39,099 bases of DNA from Actinomycetota bacterium (GTDB taxonomy: Bacteria > Actinomycetota > Actinomycetes > Mycobacteriales > Pseudonocardiaceae). Below, piece by piece: positions 10,129 through 19,355 of this stretch (within the stretch, counting starts at the first letter, position 1; each line of letters begins with the position of its first letter). The stretch spans positions 1-39,099 of the forward strand of contig JAJPIR010000286.1 in assembly GCA_021324675.1 (NCBI GenBank), given 5' to 3'. Made by a program: the position numbers and the translations under genes. Below the pieces are notes generated by a model. The model did not search any database and was not told the DNA's origin. It was given only the letters and a program-made list of their open reading frames with translations.

Positions 10129-10512
10129 TTAGATGACTCGTGGTGGGGCATTCGAGTCGGTGACCATGGGGCGGCCGGCGGCAGCCCAGGCGCGCATGCC
10201 CCCGTCGACGTTGACCGCATCCCATCCGGCCTGCCGGAGGTAGGCAGTGACCCGGGCTGAGCGGCCCCCGGAACGACATATGACGTGCAGCGGGCGGTCG
10301 GGTATGGCGGTGGCGATCTCGTCGAGCCGAGCCGCTACCTGCCCGATCGGGACGTGTACGGCCGCCGGTGCGTGGCCGGCGGCCCACTCGTCGTCTTCCC
10401 GGACGTCGAGCAGCACGGCGCCTTCCGGGACGTCTGCGATCACGCAGGCCGGCGCAGGGGAGCCCAATGGGGAGCTCATAGCCGCCAATCGTGCCACAGC
10501 TGCCCTTGCCAT
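10129..10512 (-). CDS. Rhodanese-like domain protein
   Basis: A single rhodanese domain of 127 residues, a sulfurtransferase type that carries sulfane sulfur on an active-site cysteine. Visible features are VLLDVREDDEWAAGHAPAAVHVP (the CH2A-type DVRE block), the active-site loop CRSGGRSA with the catalytic Cys in the HVICRSGGRS segment, and the C-terminal VDGGMRAWAAAGRPM. The first 11 residues are alanine-rich and Met12 is an equally good start; neither has a clear ribosome site. It follows the symporter-propeller gene after 40 bp in the same direction, so it may share its transcript. No partner sulfur enzyme is adjacent. Confidence 0.9.
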   Translation of the reverse strand: MARAAVARLAAMSSPLGSPAPACVIADVPEGAVLLDVREDDEWAAGHAPAAVHVPIGQVAARLDEIATAIPDRPLHVICRSGGRSARVTAYLRQAGWDAVNVDGGMRAWAAAGRPMVTDSNAPPRVI

Positions 10513-10552: not shown

Positions 10553-13324
10553 TCAGCCAGTGAGCTCCAGAACGGTAAGCGAGCCGGCCTGGACGTTGCT
10601 CACATACGCCTGGCGGCCGTTGGGCAACACCGCGATGCTGGTCGGCTGGATTCCGGTGGGGATCGTCGCGGTCACCTGGTTGGTCCGGACATCGATCACG
10701 GTCACCGTGTTGCTGCCCTCGTTGACCACGTAGGCAAACCGCCCGTCCGGGGCCCAGGCGATGTCTTGCGGGTTCTTTCCCACCGGGATGGTCGCCAGCA
10801 CCTTGTTGGTGATGCCGTCGATCATCGACAGGGTGTTGCTGTCGTAGTTGGTGTTGGCGACCAGTGGCAGGTTGGGATGCACGGCGATGCTGTGCGGGCT
10901 CTTCCCGACCGGGATGGTCGCCAGCACCTCAAGGGTGGTGGCGTCGATCACCGTTACCACGTTCGACTCGTGGTTAGCCGTATAGGCCAGCCTGCCGTCG
11001 CGGGAGAACGCGACCCAATGTGGGTTGGGCGCAACGGCGACCTGAGCGATGACCGTGTTGGTGTCGGTGGACACCACCGACACCGAAGCGGTGTCGTGGT
11101 TGGGGATGAACAGCCGCTTGCCGTCGCGGCTGACCGCAGGCAGGTACGGGCGGGCAGGTTGGGGGATCGTTCCGATGACCGTGTTCGTCGCGGTGTCGAG
11201 CACGTCCACCGCGTGGATCGTCCGCGCGTCGTTGAAGATGGTGACGTAGAGCGTGCGGCCGTCCGGCGCGAAGGCGAGGAACTGGGGCGGCCCCGCGGCG
11301 ATCGGTATGGTCGCGGTCACCTGGTTCACCGCGGTATCCACCACGGTGACGACCTGGGCGTTGCGGTTGGCGATGTAGGCGTGACGGCCGTTGGGGGAGA
11401 CCGCCACGAATCCCGGAGTCTTACCAACCTGGATGGTGGGACCCAGCGCCGGTATCGCGACCTCCGGACCGATGTCCGCGGCGATTTGCGGCTGAGCTGG
11501 CTTCGCGGCTTCGGATGGCGCGGCGGCCAGCACCCGGTTCACCGAGATGGACACCGCAAGGATGATCACTCCGGTGAGTACGCCGGTGGCGATCAGGACC
11601 GGCCGCCGGTGCGCGTTGCGCGGGGAGAGTTCCGCGGTGACCTCGGGGGGATCAGTGACGATCGGCTCGAGCGCCGGCCGCGCGTGCGGCACCGGCTGCG
11701 GGACAGGTGCCTGTTTCGTGGAACGCTCGGCGCCGGCACCGGTCAGTGCGCGCACCTCCATCTCGGCGTAACGGGCCTCATCTGCCCGGTCTTCCGGGCT
11801 GAGCACGGTGGCGACATAGCCGAGCAGGAAGGCCAGCGGCACCGACACCAGCGCCGGGTTTTTCAGCGGGAAGATCGCGAAGTCGACATGAGGGAACATC
11901 GAGGTCTTCGTGCCCGACACCGCCGGCGACAGGATGATCAGTAGCACGCAGCTGATCAAGCCGCCGTACATGCTCCACAGCACACCGGTGGTGTTGAACC
12001 GCTTCCAGAACAGCGAGTACAGGATCGTCGGCAGGTTCGCTGAGGCGGCCACCGCGAAGGCCAGCGCCACCAGGAAGGCCACGTTCTGGCCCAGCGCGGC
12101 GATGCCACCAAGTACCGCAAGCGCGCCGATCACGCACGCCGTGATGCGGGCTACCCGCACCTCGCTGTCGGCGTCCAGGTTGCCCCGCTTGATGACGTTG
12201 GCGTAGACGTCGTGGGCGAACGACGCTGACGCGGTAATGGTCAGGCCGGCCACCACCGCGAGGATGGTGGCGAAGGCAACCGCGGAGATGAAGCCCAGGA
12301 AAAACTCTCCGCCCAGCTGGTAGGCCAGCAGGGGCGCCGCGGAGTTCTCCCCGCCTGGCATCGCGGCGATCCGCGCCGGCCCGCCGTCCACCATGGCCGC
12401 GGCGGCGTAACCGATGACCAGGGAGAACAGGTAGAAGACACCGATCAGCCAGATGGCCCACACCACCGTGCGGCGAGCCTCTTTGGCTGTCGGCACCGTG
12501 TAGAAGCGCATCAGGATGTGCGGCAGACCCGCGGTACCCAGCACCAGGGCCAGGCCCAGCGACACAAAATCGATCTTGGTTGTGGTGCTCTTGCCGTATT
12601 GCAGACCCGGGGCCAGTACGGCCTGCCCGTGGGAGGAGCGCGCCGCCGCCTCGCCCAGCATGGTGGACAGGTTCAGCCCGAAGGCGCCCATCGCCCAGGC
12701 GGTGAGCATGCCCGCGCCGACGAGGAGCAACGCGGCTTTGACGATCTGCACCCAGGTGGTGCCGCGCATCCCACCGACCAGTACATAGAAGATCATCAGC
12801 AGGCCGACGACCGCAACCACCAGGGATTGAGCTCCCTTGCCGTGCACATTGAGCAGCAGCGCGACCAGGCCACCGGCGCCGGCCATCTGAGCCAGCAGGT
12901 AGAACAACGAGACCACGAGCGTTGAGACGGCTGCCGCTGCCCTTACCGGTTGCCTGCGCATCCGGAAGCTCAGTACGTCACCCATGGTGAACTTGCCGGT
13001 GTTGCGCAGCAGCTCGGCAACCAGCAGCAGCGCCACCAACCAGGCGACCAGAAAGCCGATCGAGTAGAGGAAGCCGTCGTAGCCGAACACGGCGATGGCA
13101 CCGGCGATGCCCAGGAACGAGGCGGCGGACAGGTAGTCGCCGGAGATGGCGACCCCGTTCTGCGGCCCAGTGAATGTCCGGCCCGCGGCGTAGTAGTCCG
13201 CGGCAGTGCGGGTGCGGCGCGACGCACGGAACACGATGACCAGGGTGACCAGCACGAAGAACAGGAAGATGCCGCCGTTGAGCAGTGGCTCGCCGACGGC
13301 TGTCTGGGCTAGCGCTGCGATCAC
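10553..13324 (-). CDS. ActP-like sodium:solute symporter fused to a C-terminal YVTN beta-propeller
   Basis: A 923-residue fusion. Residues 1-510 are a sodium:solute symporter of the acetate permease type: TRTAADYYAAGRTFTGPQNG, GDYLSAASFLGIAG, and GTAGLPHILMRFYTVP are hallmark blocks, with about 13 helices. Residues 511-575 are a charged, proline-rich linker. A 14th helix (about 575-601, VLIATGVLTGVIILAVSISV) would carry the tail to the outside. Residues 625-923 form seven YVTN/YncE-type blades of about 42 residues, each with PxxIAxxPDGRxAYVxN and TVTVIDxxTNxVxATIPVG signatures. The usual ActP has no such domain. The GTG at 13324 overlaps the DUF485 stop (GTGA), so it is coupled to its partner. 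The reading frame is uninterrupted across all parts, so this is one gene and not an annotation merge. Substrate is inferred to be a short carboxylate. Confidence 0.92.
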   Translation of the reverse strand: MIAALAQTAVGEPLLNGGIFLFFVLVTLVIVFRASRRTRTAADYYAAGRTFTGPQNGVAISGDYLSAASFLGIAGAIAVFGYDGFLYSIGFLVAWLVALLLVAELLRNTGKFTMGDVLSFRMRRQPVRAAAAVSTLVVSLFYLLAQMAGAGGLVALLLNVHGKGAQSLVVAVVGLLMIFYVLVGGMRGTTWVQIVKAALLLVGAGMLTAWAMGAFGLNLSTMLGEAAARSSHGQAVLAPGLQYGKSTTTKIDFVSLGLALVLGTAGLPHILMRFYTVPTAKEARRTVVWAIWLIGVFYLFSLVIGYAAAAMVDGGPARIAAMPGGENSAAPLLAYQLGGEFFLGFISAVAFATILAVVAGLTITASASFAHDVYANVIKRGNLDADSEVRVARITACVIGALAVLGGIAALGQNVAFLVALAFAVAASANLPTILYSLFWKRFNTTGVLWSMYGGLISCVLLIILSPAVSGTKTSMFPHVDFAIFPLKNPALVSVPLAFLLGYVATVLSPEDRADEARYAEMEVRALTGAGAERSTKQAPVPQPVPHARPALEPIVTDPPEVTAELSPRNAHRRPVLIATGVLTGVIILAVSISVNRVLAAAPSEAAKPAQPQIAADIGPEVAIPALGPTIQVGKTPGFVAVSPNGRHAYIANRNAQVVTVVDTAVNQVTATIPIAAGPPQFLAFAPDGRTLYVTIFNDARTIHAVDVLDTATNTVIGTIPQPARPYLPAVSRDGKRLFIPNHDTASVSVVSTDTNTVIAQVAVAPNPHWVAFSRDGRLAYTANHESNVVTVIDATTLEVLATIPVGKSPHSIAVHPNLPLVANTNYDSNTLSMIDGITNKVLATIPVGKNPQDIAWAPDGRFAYVVNEGSNTVTVIDVRTNQVTATIPTGIQPTSIAVLPNGRQAYVSNVQAGSLTVLELTG

Positions 13325-13674
13325 CAGGTGCCTCCCTCGACGTGCTCGCGGATCCGGCTGCTGACCGGATCGAGGTAGCGGTTGGCGAAACGCACGTAGA
13401 TCGTCGTGATGGTGAAGGTGGAGACGAACTGCAGCAAGCCGAAGATCAGCCCAATGTTGATGTTGCCGGCAACCTTGATCGCCATGAAGTGCGGCGCGAA
13501 TGCCGCGAGCATGACGTACAGGAAATACCAGACAAGGAAGAACGCGGTCATCGGGAAGATGAATCCGCGCAGCCGCGTGCGCAGCGTGGCGAACTCCGTG
13601 CTGGCGTAGGCGACGGTCCAGGGGTCCGATGCGCGCCCGCCGGAGGCAGCGCCGGCAGGCTCGGCGGTGCTCAT
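13321..13674 (-). CDS. DUF485 membrane protein (YjcH-like symporter partner)
   Basis: A 117-residue protein with two membrane helices, the family of E. coli YjcH, which is encoded with the acetate symporter ActP. Landmarks are the FATLRTRLRGFIFPMTAFFLVWYF segment (first helix about 41-60), the MLAAFAPHFMAIKV loop, and NIGLIFGLLQFVSTFTITTIYVRFA (second helix about 73-95), then the basic YVRFANRYLDP. GGAGG lies seven bases before the ATG, an excellent ribosome site. It overlaps the symporter-propeller gene by four bases. A role in assembly or stability of the symporter is the usual inference. Confidence 0.93.
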   Translation of the reverse strand: MSTAEPAGAASGGRASDPWTVAYASTEFATLRTRLRGFIFPMTAFFLVWYFLYVMLAAFAPHFMAIKVAGNINIGLIFGLLQFVSTFTITTIYVRFANRYLDPVSSRIREHVEGGTW

Positions 13675-13854: not shown

Positions 13855-15651
13855 TCACCGACGGTGACGACCCCCTCGCATCCGTGGTAACGCAGCTGCG
13901 GTGAGACCAGCGCGAGATCCCGGCTGGCCAAAGTCCCGATCCTCGGACAAGCCCAGCCGGTCGGGCGCGTGCAGCCGCAGCAAGATACGCGAGACGTCGC
14001 CCGGAATCCGATCGCTGGTTCGGCGGCTCACCACCACCATGGTGAGGAAGGCCAGCGGCACGGTGAATGCGGCCGGCTGCGCCAGCACCGGTTGCCATTC
14101 CGGAGGCAGGATGCCGGCCGCGGCAGGCAGCACCGCGGCGAACGCCAAACCACCGCCCAGCAAGACGCCAGCCGCCGCGCCCACGTCGGTCAACCCCCGC
14201 CACCAGATGCCCAGCACCAGCAGCGGGCAGAACGTCGAGGCCGCCACCGCGAAAGCCAGCCCGACGCCTTGGGCGAGATCGAGCGACGACACCGCGAGCA
14301 TGAACGCCAAGGGGACTGACCAGGCCGCGACCGTGGCCGCCCGGAAGCCGCGCAGCCGGCCTGGTAAGACGTCAGTCGACAGCACCCCCGCGACGCTGAC
14401 CACCAGGCCGGTGGCTGCGGAGATGAAGGCGGCGAATGCCCCGGCTGCGATCAGGCCGCCGAGCACCAGCGCGGGCCACTTGCCCAGCGCAGCTCGAGGC
14501 AGTTCCAGCAACGCGGCATCGGTGTTGCCGGCGGCCAGCAGTTCGGGGACGTAAAGCCGGGCGAGCCACCCCGACACGATCGGGAACAGGTAGAACGCCC
14601 CGAGGAGCGCGAGAACCAGCAGCGTGGTGCGGCGCGCCGCGGTCCCGTCCGGATCGGTGTAGTAGCGGCCCAGGATGTGTGGAAGTCCCATGGTGCCCAG
14701 CAGCAGCGCCACGATGAGCGAGTAGGTGGCCAGTAGGGGATGCTTGCCGGCGCCCAGGGGGCGCAGCCAGGCGCCGTAGTCGGCGGCGGCGTCGGTGATC
14801 ACCGGGATCCGGGTGCCGGCATCGAAGTGCACGATGGTGCCTTTGGCTACCTTGTGCTCAGCGGGTGCCCAGCGCACGGGCCCGTTCGTCGGGTGGTCAT
14901 CCTGCATGCCGATCACCTTGACCGTGGTCGGCTGGGTCACTTTGAGCACGATGTCGCGATCCGGCGTGATGTCCGTGGCCTGGGTGAACGCCGGTGGCGC
15001 GCCGTTGAGGGAGCTGCGAGGCGCTTGATGCGCCGCGGCGTGGTGGATCAGCAGCACGAACACCGGGACGGCGAGCGCGGTCAGCTTGATCCAGTACTGG
15101 AAGGCCTGCACGATGGTGATCGAGTGCATCCAGCCGGTGTAGATGTTCAACGTCACGATCACCATGACCACGGCGGCGCCGACCCATTTCGGTTGGTGCG
15201 TGACCTCGTGCAAAGTCAGCCCCGCGCCCTGTAGCTGCGGGACAAGGTAGAGCCAGCCGACAATGATGACGAAAGCGGTGCAGATCTGGCGCAGCCGCGC
15301 CGAACCCAGCCGCACCTCAACGAAGTCGGGCAGCGTGTAGGCGCCAGAGCGGCGCAGCGGCGCTGCCACGAACAGCAGCAACGTCACGTAACCTGCGGTG
15401 AAACCCACCGGGTACCACAGCGCGTCGACTCCGCCTTTGAGCACCAGCCCGGCGACCCCGAGAAACGACGCCGCCGACAGGTACTGCCCGGAGATCGCCG
15501 CGGCGTTCCAGCGCGGGCCCAGCGTGCGCGCGGCCTCCAGGAAATTCGAGGTTGACCGCATCTTGGCCCCGTAGAGCCCGGCCAGCATGGTCACCGCGGC
15601 AACCACGACCATCGCAGCGACGGTTACGTAGAAGGCAGCCTGCTCGGGCAC
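13855..15651 (-). CDS. Sodium:solute symporter family transporter with a large soluble insert
   Basis: A 598-residue symporter of the ActP-like branch of the SSS family. Conserved blocks are SGQYLSAASFLGVAGLVLKGG (about 54-74, quoted in part), GAYTLPDFVEVRLGS, VPQLQGAGLTLHEVT, and GTMGLPHILGRYYTDPDG (about 319-336). Between helices near residues 200 and 305 lies a roughly 100-residue hydrophilic segment rich in Thr, Val and Asp (DRDIVLKVTQPTTVKVIGMQ and following) with the look of a small beta domain, probably outside the membrane. Start GTG 15651 lies seven bases after the DUF485-like gene stop. It is the first transporter of the kinase/regulator locus, probably importing acetate, pyruvate or another monocarboxylate; the substrate is inferred from family and context only. 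Confidence 0.92.
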   Translation of the reverse strand: MPEQAAFYVTVAAMVVVAAVTMLAGLYGAKMRSTSNFLEAARTLGPRWNAAAISGQYLSAASFLGVAGLVLKGGVDALWYPVGFTAGYVTLLLFVAAPLRRSGAYTLPDFVEVRLGSARLRQICTAFVIIVGWLYLVPQLQGAGLTLHEVTHQPKWVGAAVVMVIVTLNIYTGWMHSITIVQAFQYWIKLTALAVPVFVLLIHHAAAHQAPRSSLNGAPPAFTQATDITPDRDIVLKVTQPTTVKVIGMQDDHPTNGPVRWAPAEHKVAKGTIVHFDAGTRIPVITDAAADYGAWLRPLGAGKHPLLATYSLIVALLLGTMGLPHILGRYYTDPDGTAARRTTLLVLALLGAFYLFPIVSGWLARLYVPELLAAGNTDAALLELPRAALGKWPALVLGGLIAAGAFAAFISAATGLVVSVAGVLSTDVLPGRLRGFRAATVAAWSVPLAFMLAVSSLDLAQGVGLAFAVAASTFCPLLVLGIWWRGLTDVGAAAGVLLGGGLAFAAVLPAAAGILPPEWQPVLAQPAAFTVPLAFLTMVVVSRRTSDRIPGDVSRILLRLHAPDRLGLSEDRDFGQPGSRAGLTAAALPRMRGGRHRR

Positions 15652-16199: not shown

Positions 16200-17015
16200 T
16201 CATCGGGACGTCCAGCCTTGCTTGGCCGCGCGCACCAGCCGGTCCTTGAGCTCGCGGGTGTGCCTGCGGCTGACCGGTAATTCGGTGGCGTCATCGCCGT
16301 TGCCGACCCGGACGACATAGCCCGACGTCGACATGCGCAGTTCGGTGACCAGCGGCAGGGCGACCAGGAAGGAGCGGTGGATGCGCACGAACCCGGCATC
16401 GGACCAGCGATCCTCCAGTTGGGACAGCGGGATACGGACCAGGTGGCTGGTGCCCTCACCGGTATGCAGCCGCGCGTAGTCCCCATGCGCCTCCACCCAG
16501 CGCACCGACGAGCGGGGGACCAGTTTGGTGGTACCGGCGAGTTCCACCGGGATGACTTCGTCCTCGCTGGCCTGCTCCGGTCCCGGAGCGGCCGCGTCCC
16601 GCCGGGAAGCCACGATTCGCCGCATCGTGTTGGCCAGCCGCTCCCGGCTCACTGGTTTCATCAAGTAGTCAGCCGCACCGATCTCGAACGCGTCCAGAGC
16701 GTTCTCGTCGTAGGCGGTGGCGAACACCACTGCCGGCGGGTTGGGGATCGTGGCCAGCACGCGGGCCAACTCGAGACCGTCTAACCCAGGCATCCGGATG
16801 TCCAGGAACACCACATCGACCCGCGGCAGCGGGGTGCCGTTGGGGCTGCGGCTATCGGGCCGCAGGATCGACAGCGCCTCGGTGGCGTTCGTGGCGGTCA
16901 GGATGGTGCCGATGCGCGGCTCAGCCTCCAAGACCTCTAGCAGCATGGCCAACGGACCCGGCTCGTCGTCGACGGCGAGCACGACAAGCCCGGGATTGTC
17001 GTCGTTGCCGCTCAT
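16200..17015 (-). CDS. LytTR-family response regulator
   Basis: A 271-residue two-component regulator. The receiver domain (about 10-135) has the acidic pair in LAVDDEPG, phospho-acceptor Asp72 in VVFLDIRMPGLDG, Thr98-type switch residue in FATAYDE, and the conserved Lys in LMKPVSRE. The DNA-binding LytTR domain (about 150-265) shows VRWVEAHGDYARLHT, FVRIHRSFLVAL and ELPVSRRHTRELKDRL. Its ATG is preceded by GAGAGG. It follows the S49 peptidase and the LytS-type kinase and precedes two symporter modules, so the obvious role is phosphorylation-dependent control of those transporters, as for enterobacterial BtsR and YpdB. Confidence 0.94.
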   Translation of the reverse strand: MSGNDDNPGLVVLAVDDEPGPLAMLLEVLEAEPRIGTILTATNATEALSILRPDSRSPNGTPLPRVDVVFLDIRMPGLDGLELARVLATIPNPPAVVFATAYDENALDAFEIGAADYLMKPVSRERLANTMRRIVASRRDAAAPGPEQASEDEVIPVELAGTTKLVPRSSVRWVEAHGDYARLHTGEGTSHLVRIPLSQLEDRWSDAGFVRIHRSFLVALPLVTELRMSTSGYVVRVGNGDDATELPVSRRHTRELKDRLVRAAKQGWTSR

Positions 17016-17179: not shown

Positions 17180-18076
17180 CTACAACCCGAAGCGAGCCCA
17201 GGCGGCTCGGTGCTCGAGCGCTTCGAGCACTGCGAGCGCGGATTCCGAGGCGCTGTGGGTGCTCAGTGTGGCTGCCGCGGGGACGAGACCCAGCCGGGCC
17301 AGCAGCGGCCGGCGTTGCTCGACGGTGACGATTTGCGCGCTGGGGTAGCGCTTGCTCATCTCCCCGCGCATCGTGCCCAACCGGTCCACCAGGCCCAGTT
17401 CGACGGCCCGGCGCCCGGTCCATACCTCGCCGGTGAACAGGTCTTGCTGGTCAGTGGCCAGCATGGTGCCCCGCCGGGAGCAGACCCATTCCCGGAACAT
17501 CGTGTGCAGCTCGGCTTGCATGCCGTGCAACCAGATCACGTCTTCTTCCTGCTCAGGCAGGAAGGGGTCCAGGCGGGCCTTGTTGGCGCCCGCGGTGTAG
17601 AGCCTGCGCTCGACCCCGAAGCGCTCCAGCAAACCGTGCAGCCCGAATCCCCGGCTGACCACCCCGATGGATCCGACCAGCGATGTGGGGTGCGCGATGA
17701 TCTCGTCCGCGGCGCAGGCCACCCAGTAACCGCCGGACGCGGCGATGTCCTCGCAAAACGCGAGCACTGGTACGTGCTTGTCGTCGGCGAGGCCGCGGAT
17801 CCGATCCGCCAGCAGCGCTGATTGGGTAGGCGACCCGCCCGGTGAATTGATCAACAGTGCTACTGCCCGCAGCCGCTCGTAGCTGAAGGCGCGCGTCAGC
17901 ACCGAGTCGAAGGAAGCCAGGTTGATCACTCCGCGGGCCAGCGACGCCGGCGCCGGCGTGATCACGCCATGCAGTTTTACCGCGGCCACCACCGGGCCGC
18001 TTTCCCGCTGGCTGCCAGGCAACGGCAGCCGCGAGGCCAGGTCCTTGACGTCCATTCGGTTAAGCGTACGGAGCAT
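17180..18076 (-). CDS. S49 family peptidase (SppA-like, short cytoplasmic form)
   Basis: A 298-residue serine protease of the signal peptide peptidase A type. The region VALLINSPGGSPTQSALLAD is the S49 substrate loop; the nucleophile is Ser114 in EDIAASGGYWVAC, and the general base is probably Lys166 in TAGANKARLDPF, giving the Ser/Lys dyad of the bacterial family. SLVGSIGVVSRGFGL is also characteristic. There is no N-terminal membrane helix, unlike E. coli SppA, so it may be peripheral. Met8 is an alternative start. It lies between a sensor kinase (25 bp upstream) and its regulator, an odd place that suggests either a signalling role or simple co-inheritance. Confidence 0.92.
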   Translation of the reverse strand: MLRTLNRMDVKDLASRLPLPGSQRESGPVVAAVKLHGVITPAPASLARGVINLASFDSVLTRAFSYERLRAVALLINSPGGSPTQSALLADRIRGLADDKHVPVLAFCEDIAASGGYWVACAADEIIAHPTSLVGSIGVVSRGFGLHGLLERFGVERRLYTAGANKARLDPFLPEQEEDVIWLHGMQAELHTMFREWVCSRRGTMLATDQQDLFTGEVWTGRRAVELGLVDRLGTMRGEMSKRYPSAQIVTVEQRRPLLARLGLVPAAATLSTHSASESALAVLEALEHRAAWARFGL

Positions 18077-18101: not shown

Positions 18102-19355
18102 CTAGGCGCTTACCGGCGGCTGGGTACGCGACGGGCTTGGTGTCGGCGGAGCGATGGCGCGCACCCCGCGGCTGAACTTCGGCACCTTCATACTGACCTT
18201 GGTGCCCGCCCCCGGCGCCGTCTCGACGACCAGCCCGCACTCGTCGCCGAACGCTCCGCGCAGCCGGTCGTGGACGTTGCCCAAACCGACATGGGCCCCG
18301 GTGACGTGAGAGTCGGTCATCTCGTCGCGCAGCCGGTCCGGGTCCATCCCGATGCCGTCGTCCTCGACACTGATCACGCAATCCGCTCCGGCGTCCTCGG
18401 CTATCACCGAGACGGTGCCCCCGCCGGGTTTGCCCGCCAGCCCGTGCCGGACGGCGTTTTCCACCAGCGGCTGCAGCGCCAGGAATGGCAGTACTACCGG
18501 AAGTACCTCAGGGGCGATCTGCAGTTTGACCTGTAGTCGTTCCCCGAACCTGGCCTTCTCCAGGATCAGGTACCGGTCGATGTTGTTGAGTTCCTCGGCC
18601 AGCGTGGTGAATTCCCCGGTGGAGCGGAAGGAGTACCGGGTGAACTCGGCGAACTCCATGAGCAGTTCGCGCGCCTCCTCAGGGTCGGTGCGCACGAAGG
18701 ACGAGATCGTCGTCAGCGCGTTGTAGATGAAATGCGGCGAGATCTGCGCGCGCAGCGCCCGTACCTCGGCATGGGCCAGCCGGGATCGGGACTCGTCGAG
18801 CTCGGCCAGCTCCAGCTGGCTGGAGACGTAACGGGCGACTTCAGCGGTGGCCCGCATGACGCCCGCTGCGGCGGGCCGCTCGCTGACCACACCAAAGGTC
18901 CCCACGATCCCCCCGTCGACCTCCAGCGGGGAGACGATCACCGCGCGAATCGGGCAGTCGGCCCGGCCGCAGTCCATCTCGCGCTGGCTGCGAACCTGCT
19001 GGCGGCCGGTGCTCAGGGCCTCCAAAGCGGCTTCGGCGACCCATTCGGCGTGATGCTGCCCCTCGCCATCCCAGGCCAGCATCACGCTTTCATCGTTGGT
19101 CAGCGCAACGGCCGTGCAGTTCAACAGGGCCCGCAGGTGCGGCGCCGCAGCGGTCGCCGAGGACGCCTGCAGCCCGTCGCGTAACGGCGGTGATGCCCGT
19201 GCCATGGTGATCAGTGCGTTGTAGGTGGCCCGGTCGGCATCGGTGCCGAACTCCCGCCGGCTGCGCACCCAGTGCAGCAAGCCGGTAGCGAGCACCGCAG
19301 CGATAATCAGGGCGAGTGCTGCCACCACCCCGGGGTTGTGGAGCAGATTCACCAC
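18102..19355 (-). CDS. LytS-type sensor histidine kinase
   Basis: A 417-residue kinase. One N-terminal membrane helix (about 8-30) anchors it; a GAF-like sensor domain follows (about 60-180) and contains a cysteine pair in MDCGRADCPIR that could bind metal or sense redox. A linker helix (about 176-200) leads to the His_kinase (LytS) domain with phospho-acceptor His208 in RAQISPHFIYNALTTI, and then a HATPase domain with LQPLVENAVRHGL and EDDGIGMDP. The absence of a multi-helix sensor means the signal is probably cytoplasmic. The C-terminal 25 residues are proline-rich. The start is GTG. It heads the minus-strand run and pairs with the LytTR regulator two genes on. Confidence 0.94.
   Translation of the reverse strand: MVNLLHNPGVVAALALIIAAVLATGLLHWVRSRREFGTDADRATYNALITMARASPPLRDGLQASSATAAAPHLRALLNCTAVALTNDESVMLAWDGEGQHHAEWVAEAALEALSTGRQQVRSQREMDCGRADCPIRAVIVSPLEVDGGIVGTFGVVSERPAAAGVMRATAEVARYVSSQLELAELDESRSRLAHAEVRALRAQISPHFIYNALTTISSFVRTDPEEARELLMEFAEFTRYSFRSTGEFTTLAEELNNIDRYLILEKARFGERLQVKLQIAPEVLPVVLPFLALQPLVENAVRHGLAGKPGGGTVSVIAEDAGADCVISVEDDGIGMDPDRLRDEMTDSHVTGAHVGLGNVHDRLRGAFGDECGLVVETAPGAGTKVSMKVPKFSRGVRAIAPPTPSPSRTQPPVSA

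Follow-up and report, generated by a model that had tools for sequence, protein, structure and literature searches.

A C-terminal, receptor-type YVTN propeller on an MctC-type symporter in a genus of Pseudonocardiaceae

We analysed a 39,099-nucleotide stretch of DNA (contig JAJPIR010000286.1 of assembly GCA_021324675.1, in the following the window), which is part of a draft genome of 364 contigs from a member of the Pseudonocardiaceae. On its minus strand the window carries a single gene that joins an MctC-type symporter of the sodium:solute symporter family (SSF) to a linker, an added membrane helix and a seven-bladed YVTN propeller. The frame, 10553-13324, comprises 923 codons with 0 internal stops, from a GTG start at 13324 to a stop at 10553-10555. 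The continuous frame claimed by an earlier, sequence-only reading of this DNA is borne out by the missing stops and by full-length relatives. The gene is composed as follows:

10553..13324 (-): fused gene, MctC-type symporter, linker, transmembrane helix TM14 and YVTN propeller, 923 aa, GTG start
11714..13324 (-): complete MctC-type SSF domain, residues 1-537, 13 hydrophobic helices (NF058657, hydropathy scan)
11600..11713 (-): variable proline-rich linker, residues 538-575, basic at its end
11543..11599 (-): added transmembrane helix TM14, residues 576-594 (from hydropathy; aligns with the helix of the Hsp70 and caspase tails)
11450..11542 (-): stalk, residues 595-625, predicted to be extracytoplasmic
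10556..11449 (-): seven-bladed YVTN propeller, residues 626-923, its first strand closing blade 7
11096..11098 (-): His743 of the histidine quartet, after strand B of blade 3
11018..11020 (-): His769 of the quartet, at the start of strand A of blade 4
10970..10972 (-): His785 of the quartet, after strand B of blade 4
10892..10894 (-): His811 of the quartet, at the start of strand A of blade 5

The Pfam SSF model matches residues 44-455 of the fused protein. The NCBIfam model NF058657 (monocarboxylic acid transporter MctC) matches residues 10-537 with 854.5 bits against a cut-off of 670, covering model positions 2-526 of 527, and a hydropathy scan found 13 symporter helices with scores of 1.72-2.38. 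The symporter is thus complete with its 13 helices, as the sequence-only reading had it. Its label "ActP-type" has to be replaced by MctC-type: ActP proper was rejected, since both ActP models stayed below their cut-offs (TIGR02711 468.6 of 1099, PRK09395 548.9 of 750). From 341 columns that are invariant in 13 unfused relatives, 301 are unchanged in all 10 full-length fusions. The 40 columns that differ all lie outside residues 39-101 and 343-378. Conservative changes account for many of them, but not for all (N37 to R or Q, A322 to M, K385 to P or A, N411 to L). As far as the residues tell, the transport chemistry of the fusion is probably unchanged. The genome of the window, which is 95% complete, shows no second MctC-class match, just the other symporter upstream of the fused gene; the fusion is likely the only MctC of this genome.

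After helix 13 the hydropathy scan showed a gap of 66 residues (510-575), followed by the added helix at 576-594 with a score of 2.11. Four weaker stretches inside the propeller (0.82-1.34) correspond to strands in the AlphaFold2 model. For this full-length model a mean predicted local distance difference test score (pLDDT) of 56.6 and a predicted template modelling score of 0.41 were obtained. Within residues 626-923 it contains seven blades with pLDDT values mostly between 93 and 98, and a helix of low pLDDT is placed at 573-598. The YVTN repeat model TIGR02276 matches with 187 bits at a cut-off of 27.85. Hydropathy, repeat model and fold together agree with the linker of about 65 residues, the one added helix and the seven YVTN blades that had been claimed before. 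The propeller also exceeds the Pfam cut-offs of Lactonase (PF10282, 82.6 of 21.7), Cytochrom_D1 (PF02239, 62.3 of 25.5) and YNCE (PF21783, 55.2 of 27.1). These overlapping matches mark the propeller class, not an activity.

One could take them as a hint that the propeller is an enzyme or a capture site and supplies the pore with substrate from the outside, comparable to NanM in the NanM-SSF fusions that made up six of six scanned long frames of Bacteroidota. Some members of the three families are indeed enzymes. The families are broad, though, and membership in the specific NCBIfam enzyme models was rejected, since all of them stayed below their cut-offs (L-NosZ 98 of 700, hydrazine_beta 121 of 560, YncE 88 of 400 bits). 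We consider such substrate conditioning unlikely and return to it below.

The fusion is present in 11 of 11 genomes of the window's genus (window included). It is full length in 10 of them, at 82-100% identity, while in the eleventh (G001) it is split over two contigs, with the pieces for residues 1-75 and 105-378 in different frames. When 390 genomes of the family were searched at E 1e-255, a threshold that acts as a filter, 11 matched, all from this genus, and none of the 379 others. At this threshold the fusion is confined to the genus. Weaker matches outside the genus, among those listed for a 150-genome sample of the family, end at query residues 529-606, most of them near 540. Assemblies of other species carry the fusion as well (metagenome-assembled genomes of Pseudonocardiales and Pseudonocardiaceae). 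Among the 11 fusions the linker has 33 to 63 residues with 8-16 prolines, and its length changes are in frame.

Selection was assessed from the ratio of nonsynonymous to synonymous substitution rates (dN/dS), calculated according to Nei and Gojobori with our own script for every pair of the 10 full fusions (45 pairs). Symporter and propeller had medians of 0.13 (range 0.04-0.20) and 0.19 (0.04-0.28), the stalk one of 0.24 (0.08-0.40) and linker residues 538-575 one of 0.79 (0.44-1.51). Purifying selection acts on the propeller, which is conserved to about the same degree as the symporter; the linker, and to a lesser degree the helix, need merely be present. An assembly artefact, a frameshift or a neutral passenger could draw on the split gene of G001 (1 of 11 genomes). 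Such an origin is nevertheless hardly credible, given the full open frame in the window and nine further assemblies, the in-frame changes of the linker length and the selection acting on the propeller. The nine full-length relatives led us to reject an artefact, and they contradict a stop or frameshift between the two domains.

The C-terminal part of the protein also occurs elsewhere. Searching the genus with the fused protein returned other frames that match C-terminally, from about residue 520 on. Of 20 such frames that were examined, 13 match the tail at an identity of at least 56%, one (L047) at 51% and six at 31-35%. Pfam found Hsp70 in 12 of the 13 close frames and a caspase domain in the remaining one (L040); the Hsp70-like and caspase-like tails of the genus share the module at 56-67% identity. 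In an alignment of 23 tails (11 from symporters, 12 others) the basic linker end, the helix and the propeller align, with a mean column identity of 68%. In 10 of 150 sampled genomes of the order (the window's own included), the tail was matched at E 1e-60 or better. Outside the window's genome these matches fall at 11 places, which comprise 8 Ser/Thr kinases, 1 Hsp70-like protein (by BLAST) and 2 frames without a named partner. Hsp70-type tails occur also in Modestobacter and Geodermatophilus. At an E value of 1e-45 or below, the propeller was matched in 3 of 394 genomes across the class, namely that of the window and two others, whose matches do not show the histidine quartet. For 10 chosen non-symporter frames a strong hydrophobic segment precedes the propeller in each, with Arg or Lys within 8 residues before the segment in nine and slightly further upstream in L075; three of the ten have a second, weaker hydrophobic segment in the propeller. 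By alignment, linker, helix and propeller are a portable C-terminal module on four kinds of partner: symporter, Hsp70-like, caspase-like and kinase. This sharing had escaped the sequence-only reading. We define the module by a basic linker end, one helix and a propeller with His 743, 769, 785 and 811, all of which the fused protein has.

Some of these proteins deserve mention in their own right. The proteins composed of an Hsp70-like ATPase, a helix and a YVTN propeller are L029, L030 and L032 (three in the window's genome), L037-L039 and L041-L046. For most of them the Hsp70 match extends no further than position 373-378 of 599, such that most of the substrate-binding part is missing. L044:263-4150 (+) is a frame of 1296 aa with a resolvase N-terminal match before Hsp70 and propeller; it may span two genes. 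The caspase-like domain (PF00656) on the module, at L040:2963-5182 (+), the same place as L089, was seen in one genome of the genus. L047:2464-3636 (+) encodes a membrane-anchored propeller protein of 391 aa that stands alone; it has the full quartet and lacks a named partner domain. The N-terminal halves of L136 (four histidines) and L140 (three) gave no Pfam match at E 1e-8 and are possibly further partner types.

The range of partners bears on what the propeller may do. Kinase-, Hsp70- and caspase-like proteins, which carry the same propeller and quartet, transport nothing, and this argues against the feeding of substrate to the pore. From the roles considered in the sequence-only reading, a solute-capturing lid therefore loses ground, while a receptor or docking role is favoured.

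The range of partners bears on topology as well. SSF symporters usually have their N-terminus outside and their C-terminus inside the cell. Under this topology we counted 32 Lys and Arg residues in inside loops and 7 in outside loops of the fused protein, and TM14 begins after a basic stretch. A cytoplasmic location is expected for the symporter C-terminus and likewise for the Hsp70, kinase and caspase domains, so the module would keep its topology on each partner. From the positive-inside count and from the homologous modules, which are preceded by domains of cytoplasmic type, we predict that the propeller lies outside the cell. The earlier claim that the added helix puts it there gains support as a prediction.

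The module is marked by four histidines. In an alignment of 36 tails, only four columns, 743, 769, 785 and 811, have His in at least 34 of the rows. All four are found together in 34 of the 36 tails, the exceptions (L081, L140) both being at 743. Over all 39 tails that span the positions, i.e. these 36 rows together with L072 and L047, which have the quartet, and L029, which does not, 36 carry it in full; L085 to L087 are ended by contig ends and stand outside this count. Among 36 frames from other searches that cover the four positions (two with one gap), the quartet is present in three, all from the subfamily (L032, L089, L047), and in 0 of the 33 remaining other YVTN propellers. As propeller repeats can align out of register, a register-free pattern of the quartet was run in addition. 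It was found in 34 of the 36 tails. Among 871 frames of the control loci it occurred in L032, L047 and L089 and in two non-propeller frames (L118, L124), and no further propeller frame of these loci has it. In 1l0q the residues aligned to the quartet positions are not His.

In the model, His743 comes right after the second strand of blade 3 and His785 right after that of blade 4. His769 and His811 each occupy the second position of a first strand, in blade 4 and blade 5, respectively. By general propeller geometry the four histidines would lie on one face near the channel, and a natural guess is that they form a putative metal or ligand site. That the quartet could hold a metal would also suit substrate conditioning, as would hydrazine synthase beta, which came second in both fold comparisons.

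The origin of the tail was addressed with a tree of 36 propellers (11 symporter, 14 Hsp70-type, 1 caspase, 8 kinase, 2 without named partner; midpoint root), in which three long rows were flagged by the tool (L140, L136, L083). The symporter tails form one branch (support 99/94). This branch sits in a group (95/97) that is otherwise made up of 12 Hsp70-type tails and the caspase tail; the branching order within the group is not settled by the tree, and the kinase tails fall outside it. The window's propeller is 81-97% identical to the other symporter tails, 77% to the caspase tail, 57-76% to Hsp70 tails, 43-56% to kinases and 42-43% to the two without named partner. Recent gene conversion between symporter and Hsp70 tails was rejected, since the symporter tails form one clade. 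As this clade stands beside Hsp70-type tails, a receptor-type ectodomain has probably been captured once.

The reading that we favour, if tentatively and at somewhat less than an even chance, is an ordinary MctC-type symporter with a once-captured, receptor-type C-terminal half. In the ancestor of the genus, the symporter would have captured, in one event, the C-terminal half of a membrane receptor-like protein composed of an Hsp70-like ATPase, a proline-rich linker, one helix and a four-histidine YVTN propeller. Outside the cell, the propeller may share with its paralogues the type of extracytoplasmic ligand or partner, binding it via its histidine-bearing face, and would dock the transporter at that site or couple it thereto. 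The loose, freely evolving linker suggests a tether rather than a gate. The receptor kin favour ligand binding, and the non-transporter partners disfavour substrate feeding. A passive cell-wall or surface-layer anchor or lid that has no specific ligand appears to us quite improbable.

Around the fused gene the following features were found:

13321..13674 (-): DUF485 partner (PF04341, 114.6 bits), its stop overlapping the GTG start of the fused gene; we take it to be MctB-like
13331..13338 (-): GAGGGAGG, ribosome-binding-like site of the fused gene, 6 bases before the GTG
10129..10512 (-): rhodanese-like gene (PF00581) downstream of the fused gene, with the same neighbour in 10 of 13 unfused relatives
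13855..15651 (-): second symporter (SSF); the nearest NCBIfam model, VC_2705 family, gives 211.6 bits, below its cut-off of 320.75
16200..17015 (-): LytTR response regulator
18102..19355 (-): LytS-type histidine kinase (His_kinase and HATPase_c)

An S49-type peptidase gene, 17180-18076 (-), lies between the LytS-like kinase and the LytTR regulator. The GTG of the fused gene overlaps the stop of the DUF485 gene in the sequence GTGA. With DUF485 directly upstream, the fusion is a normal part of the operon, as had been stated from this overlap. The fusion resembles MctC-type transporters (NF058657) in scoring over the cut-off of their model and in having a DUF485 gene directly upstream. Unfused relatives differ in that their alignment ends at residue 538 at most, whereas the fusion has 386 residues after 537. 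Among 13 unfused loci (the best-scoring ones fetched from the family sample) DUF485 is present in all 13, and rhodanese and DUF4328 genes in 10; the window has the same neighbours. The extra part thus seems to have been added to the 3' end of a locus that is ordinary in other respects.

The LytS/LytTR pair upstream on the same strand is one of the points in favour of a transceptor or gated transporter, in which the propeller ligand alters transport, or the transport state is signalled through the module. Such an arrangement would also be in line with the Ser/Thr kinases of this order that have the module as their outer part, and with the PknD propeller being called an extracellular sensor domain in the part of PMC6213207 available. 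A linker that varies this much in length and evolves almost freely would provide poor mechanical coupling, however, and a single helix joins the two parts, such that we regard this possibility as doubtful, though a serious one. Rather unlikely, in our view, is the further variant of a domain-capture transceptor, i.e. an MctC recruited to an outside signal, perhaps a metal or metal complex on the four-histidine face, that also engages Hsp70-, caspase- and kinase-type receptors. If true, uptake, chaperone-like and cell-death-like proteins would share one outer recognition module.

Several observations weigh against the favoured reading of a once-captured docking or coupling half. The helix is weakly constrained (median dN/dS 0.45, range 0-2.26, 19 codons). 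The symporter part of the AlphaFold2 model is poor (mostly pLDDT < 50), which leaves the spacing between pore and propeller without a model. In the window's genome, the contigs that bear its 15 Pkinase places show no tail match, and no close Hsp70-type tail was found in 2 of the 11 genomes of the genus (G003 and G006, both 87% complete). As the tree is midpoint-rooted, we infer rather than read from it the donor and the direction from kinase via Hsp70 to symporter. The Hsp70-type tail L029, which belongs to the same genome as the window, reads Q, H, H, L at the quartet positions, which speaks against one ligand for every paralogue. A common ligand is suggested by conservation, and the histidines could instead be structural; no ligand is known for any protein with this four-histidine propeller.

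On the favoured reading, a nutrient symporter has gained the outer half of a receptor-type protein, which is kept under selection throughout the genus. The portable ectodomain has a clear residue signature, so a single soluble domain could be purified for a ligand search. A ligand would bear at once on the hybrid transporter, on the Hsp70-like and caspase-like proteins and on the YVTN kinases of the order.

For known precedents, a permuted mutarotase model was searched against 198 genomes from the phylum of a locus labelled Hymenobacter polaris, which we take to be Bacteroidota. Matches at E 1e-40 were obtained in 11 genomes at 12 places, none over the curated cut-off. Seven of the 12 places lie in frames of 869-917 aa, and all six that were scanned (L149, L150, L152, L154, L155, L156) consist of NANM/Kelch followed by SSF, an N-terminal counterpart of the window's fusion. 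A mutarotase search of five genomes represented among the loci of this analysis gave no match. Both fusions combine SSF and propeller in one frame, and by the usual N-out topology the NanM propeller should be outside too. It is N-terminal and of the Kelch/NANM type with SSF after it, whereas the window's propeller is C-terminal, of the YVTN type and without a NANM match. The two fusions likely have a separate origin, since the propeller classes differ.

The available parts of the NanM papers PMC3658417, PMC10017367 and PMC5931594 describe no SSF fusion. The titles and abstract openings listed in the literature searched, in which most subscription journals are missing and absence therefore counts for little, mentioned neither an MctC- or YVTN-propeller symporter fusion nor an Hsp70-TM-propeller protein. 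A propeller on an SSF symporter as such thus already exists, which qualifies the remark in the sequence-only reading that it knew of no described transporter of this form; for the C-terminal, receptor-type YVTN form, no printed description was found in the literature searched. The available part of PMC7159879 treats actinobacterial kinases related to beta-propeller-fused ones and Hsp70 in conflict systems, and does not describe the module there.

The remaining systems are compared by the propeller. The YVTN surface layer propeller 1l0q and E. coli YncE are chains that are not joined to a transporter. Receptor Ser/Thr kinases, of the PknD type and the YVTN kinases of the order, share a hydrophobic helix followed by a propeller, and in the YVTN kinases propeller and quartet are homologous to those of the fused protein, which itself has no Pkinase match. 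The PknD propeller is six-bladed according to the available parts of PMC6213207 and PMC2877116, that of the window seven-bladed. In the Hsp70-like proteins with helix and YVTN propeller, from the same genus, Modestobacter and Geodermatophilus, linker end, helix and propeller are homologous to those of the fusion, and the N-terminal half is an Hsp70-like ATPase in place of the symporter.

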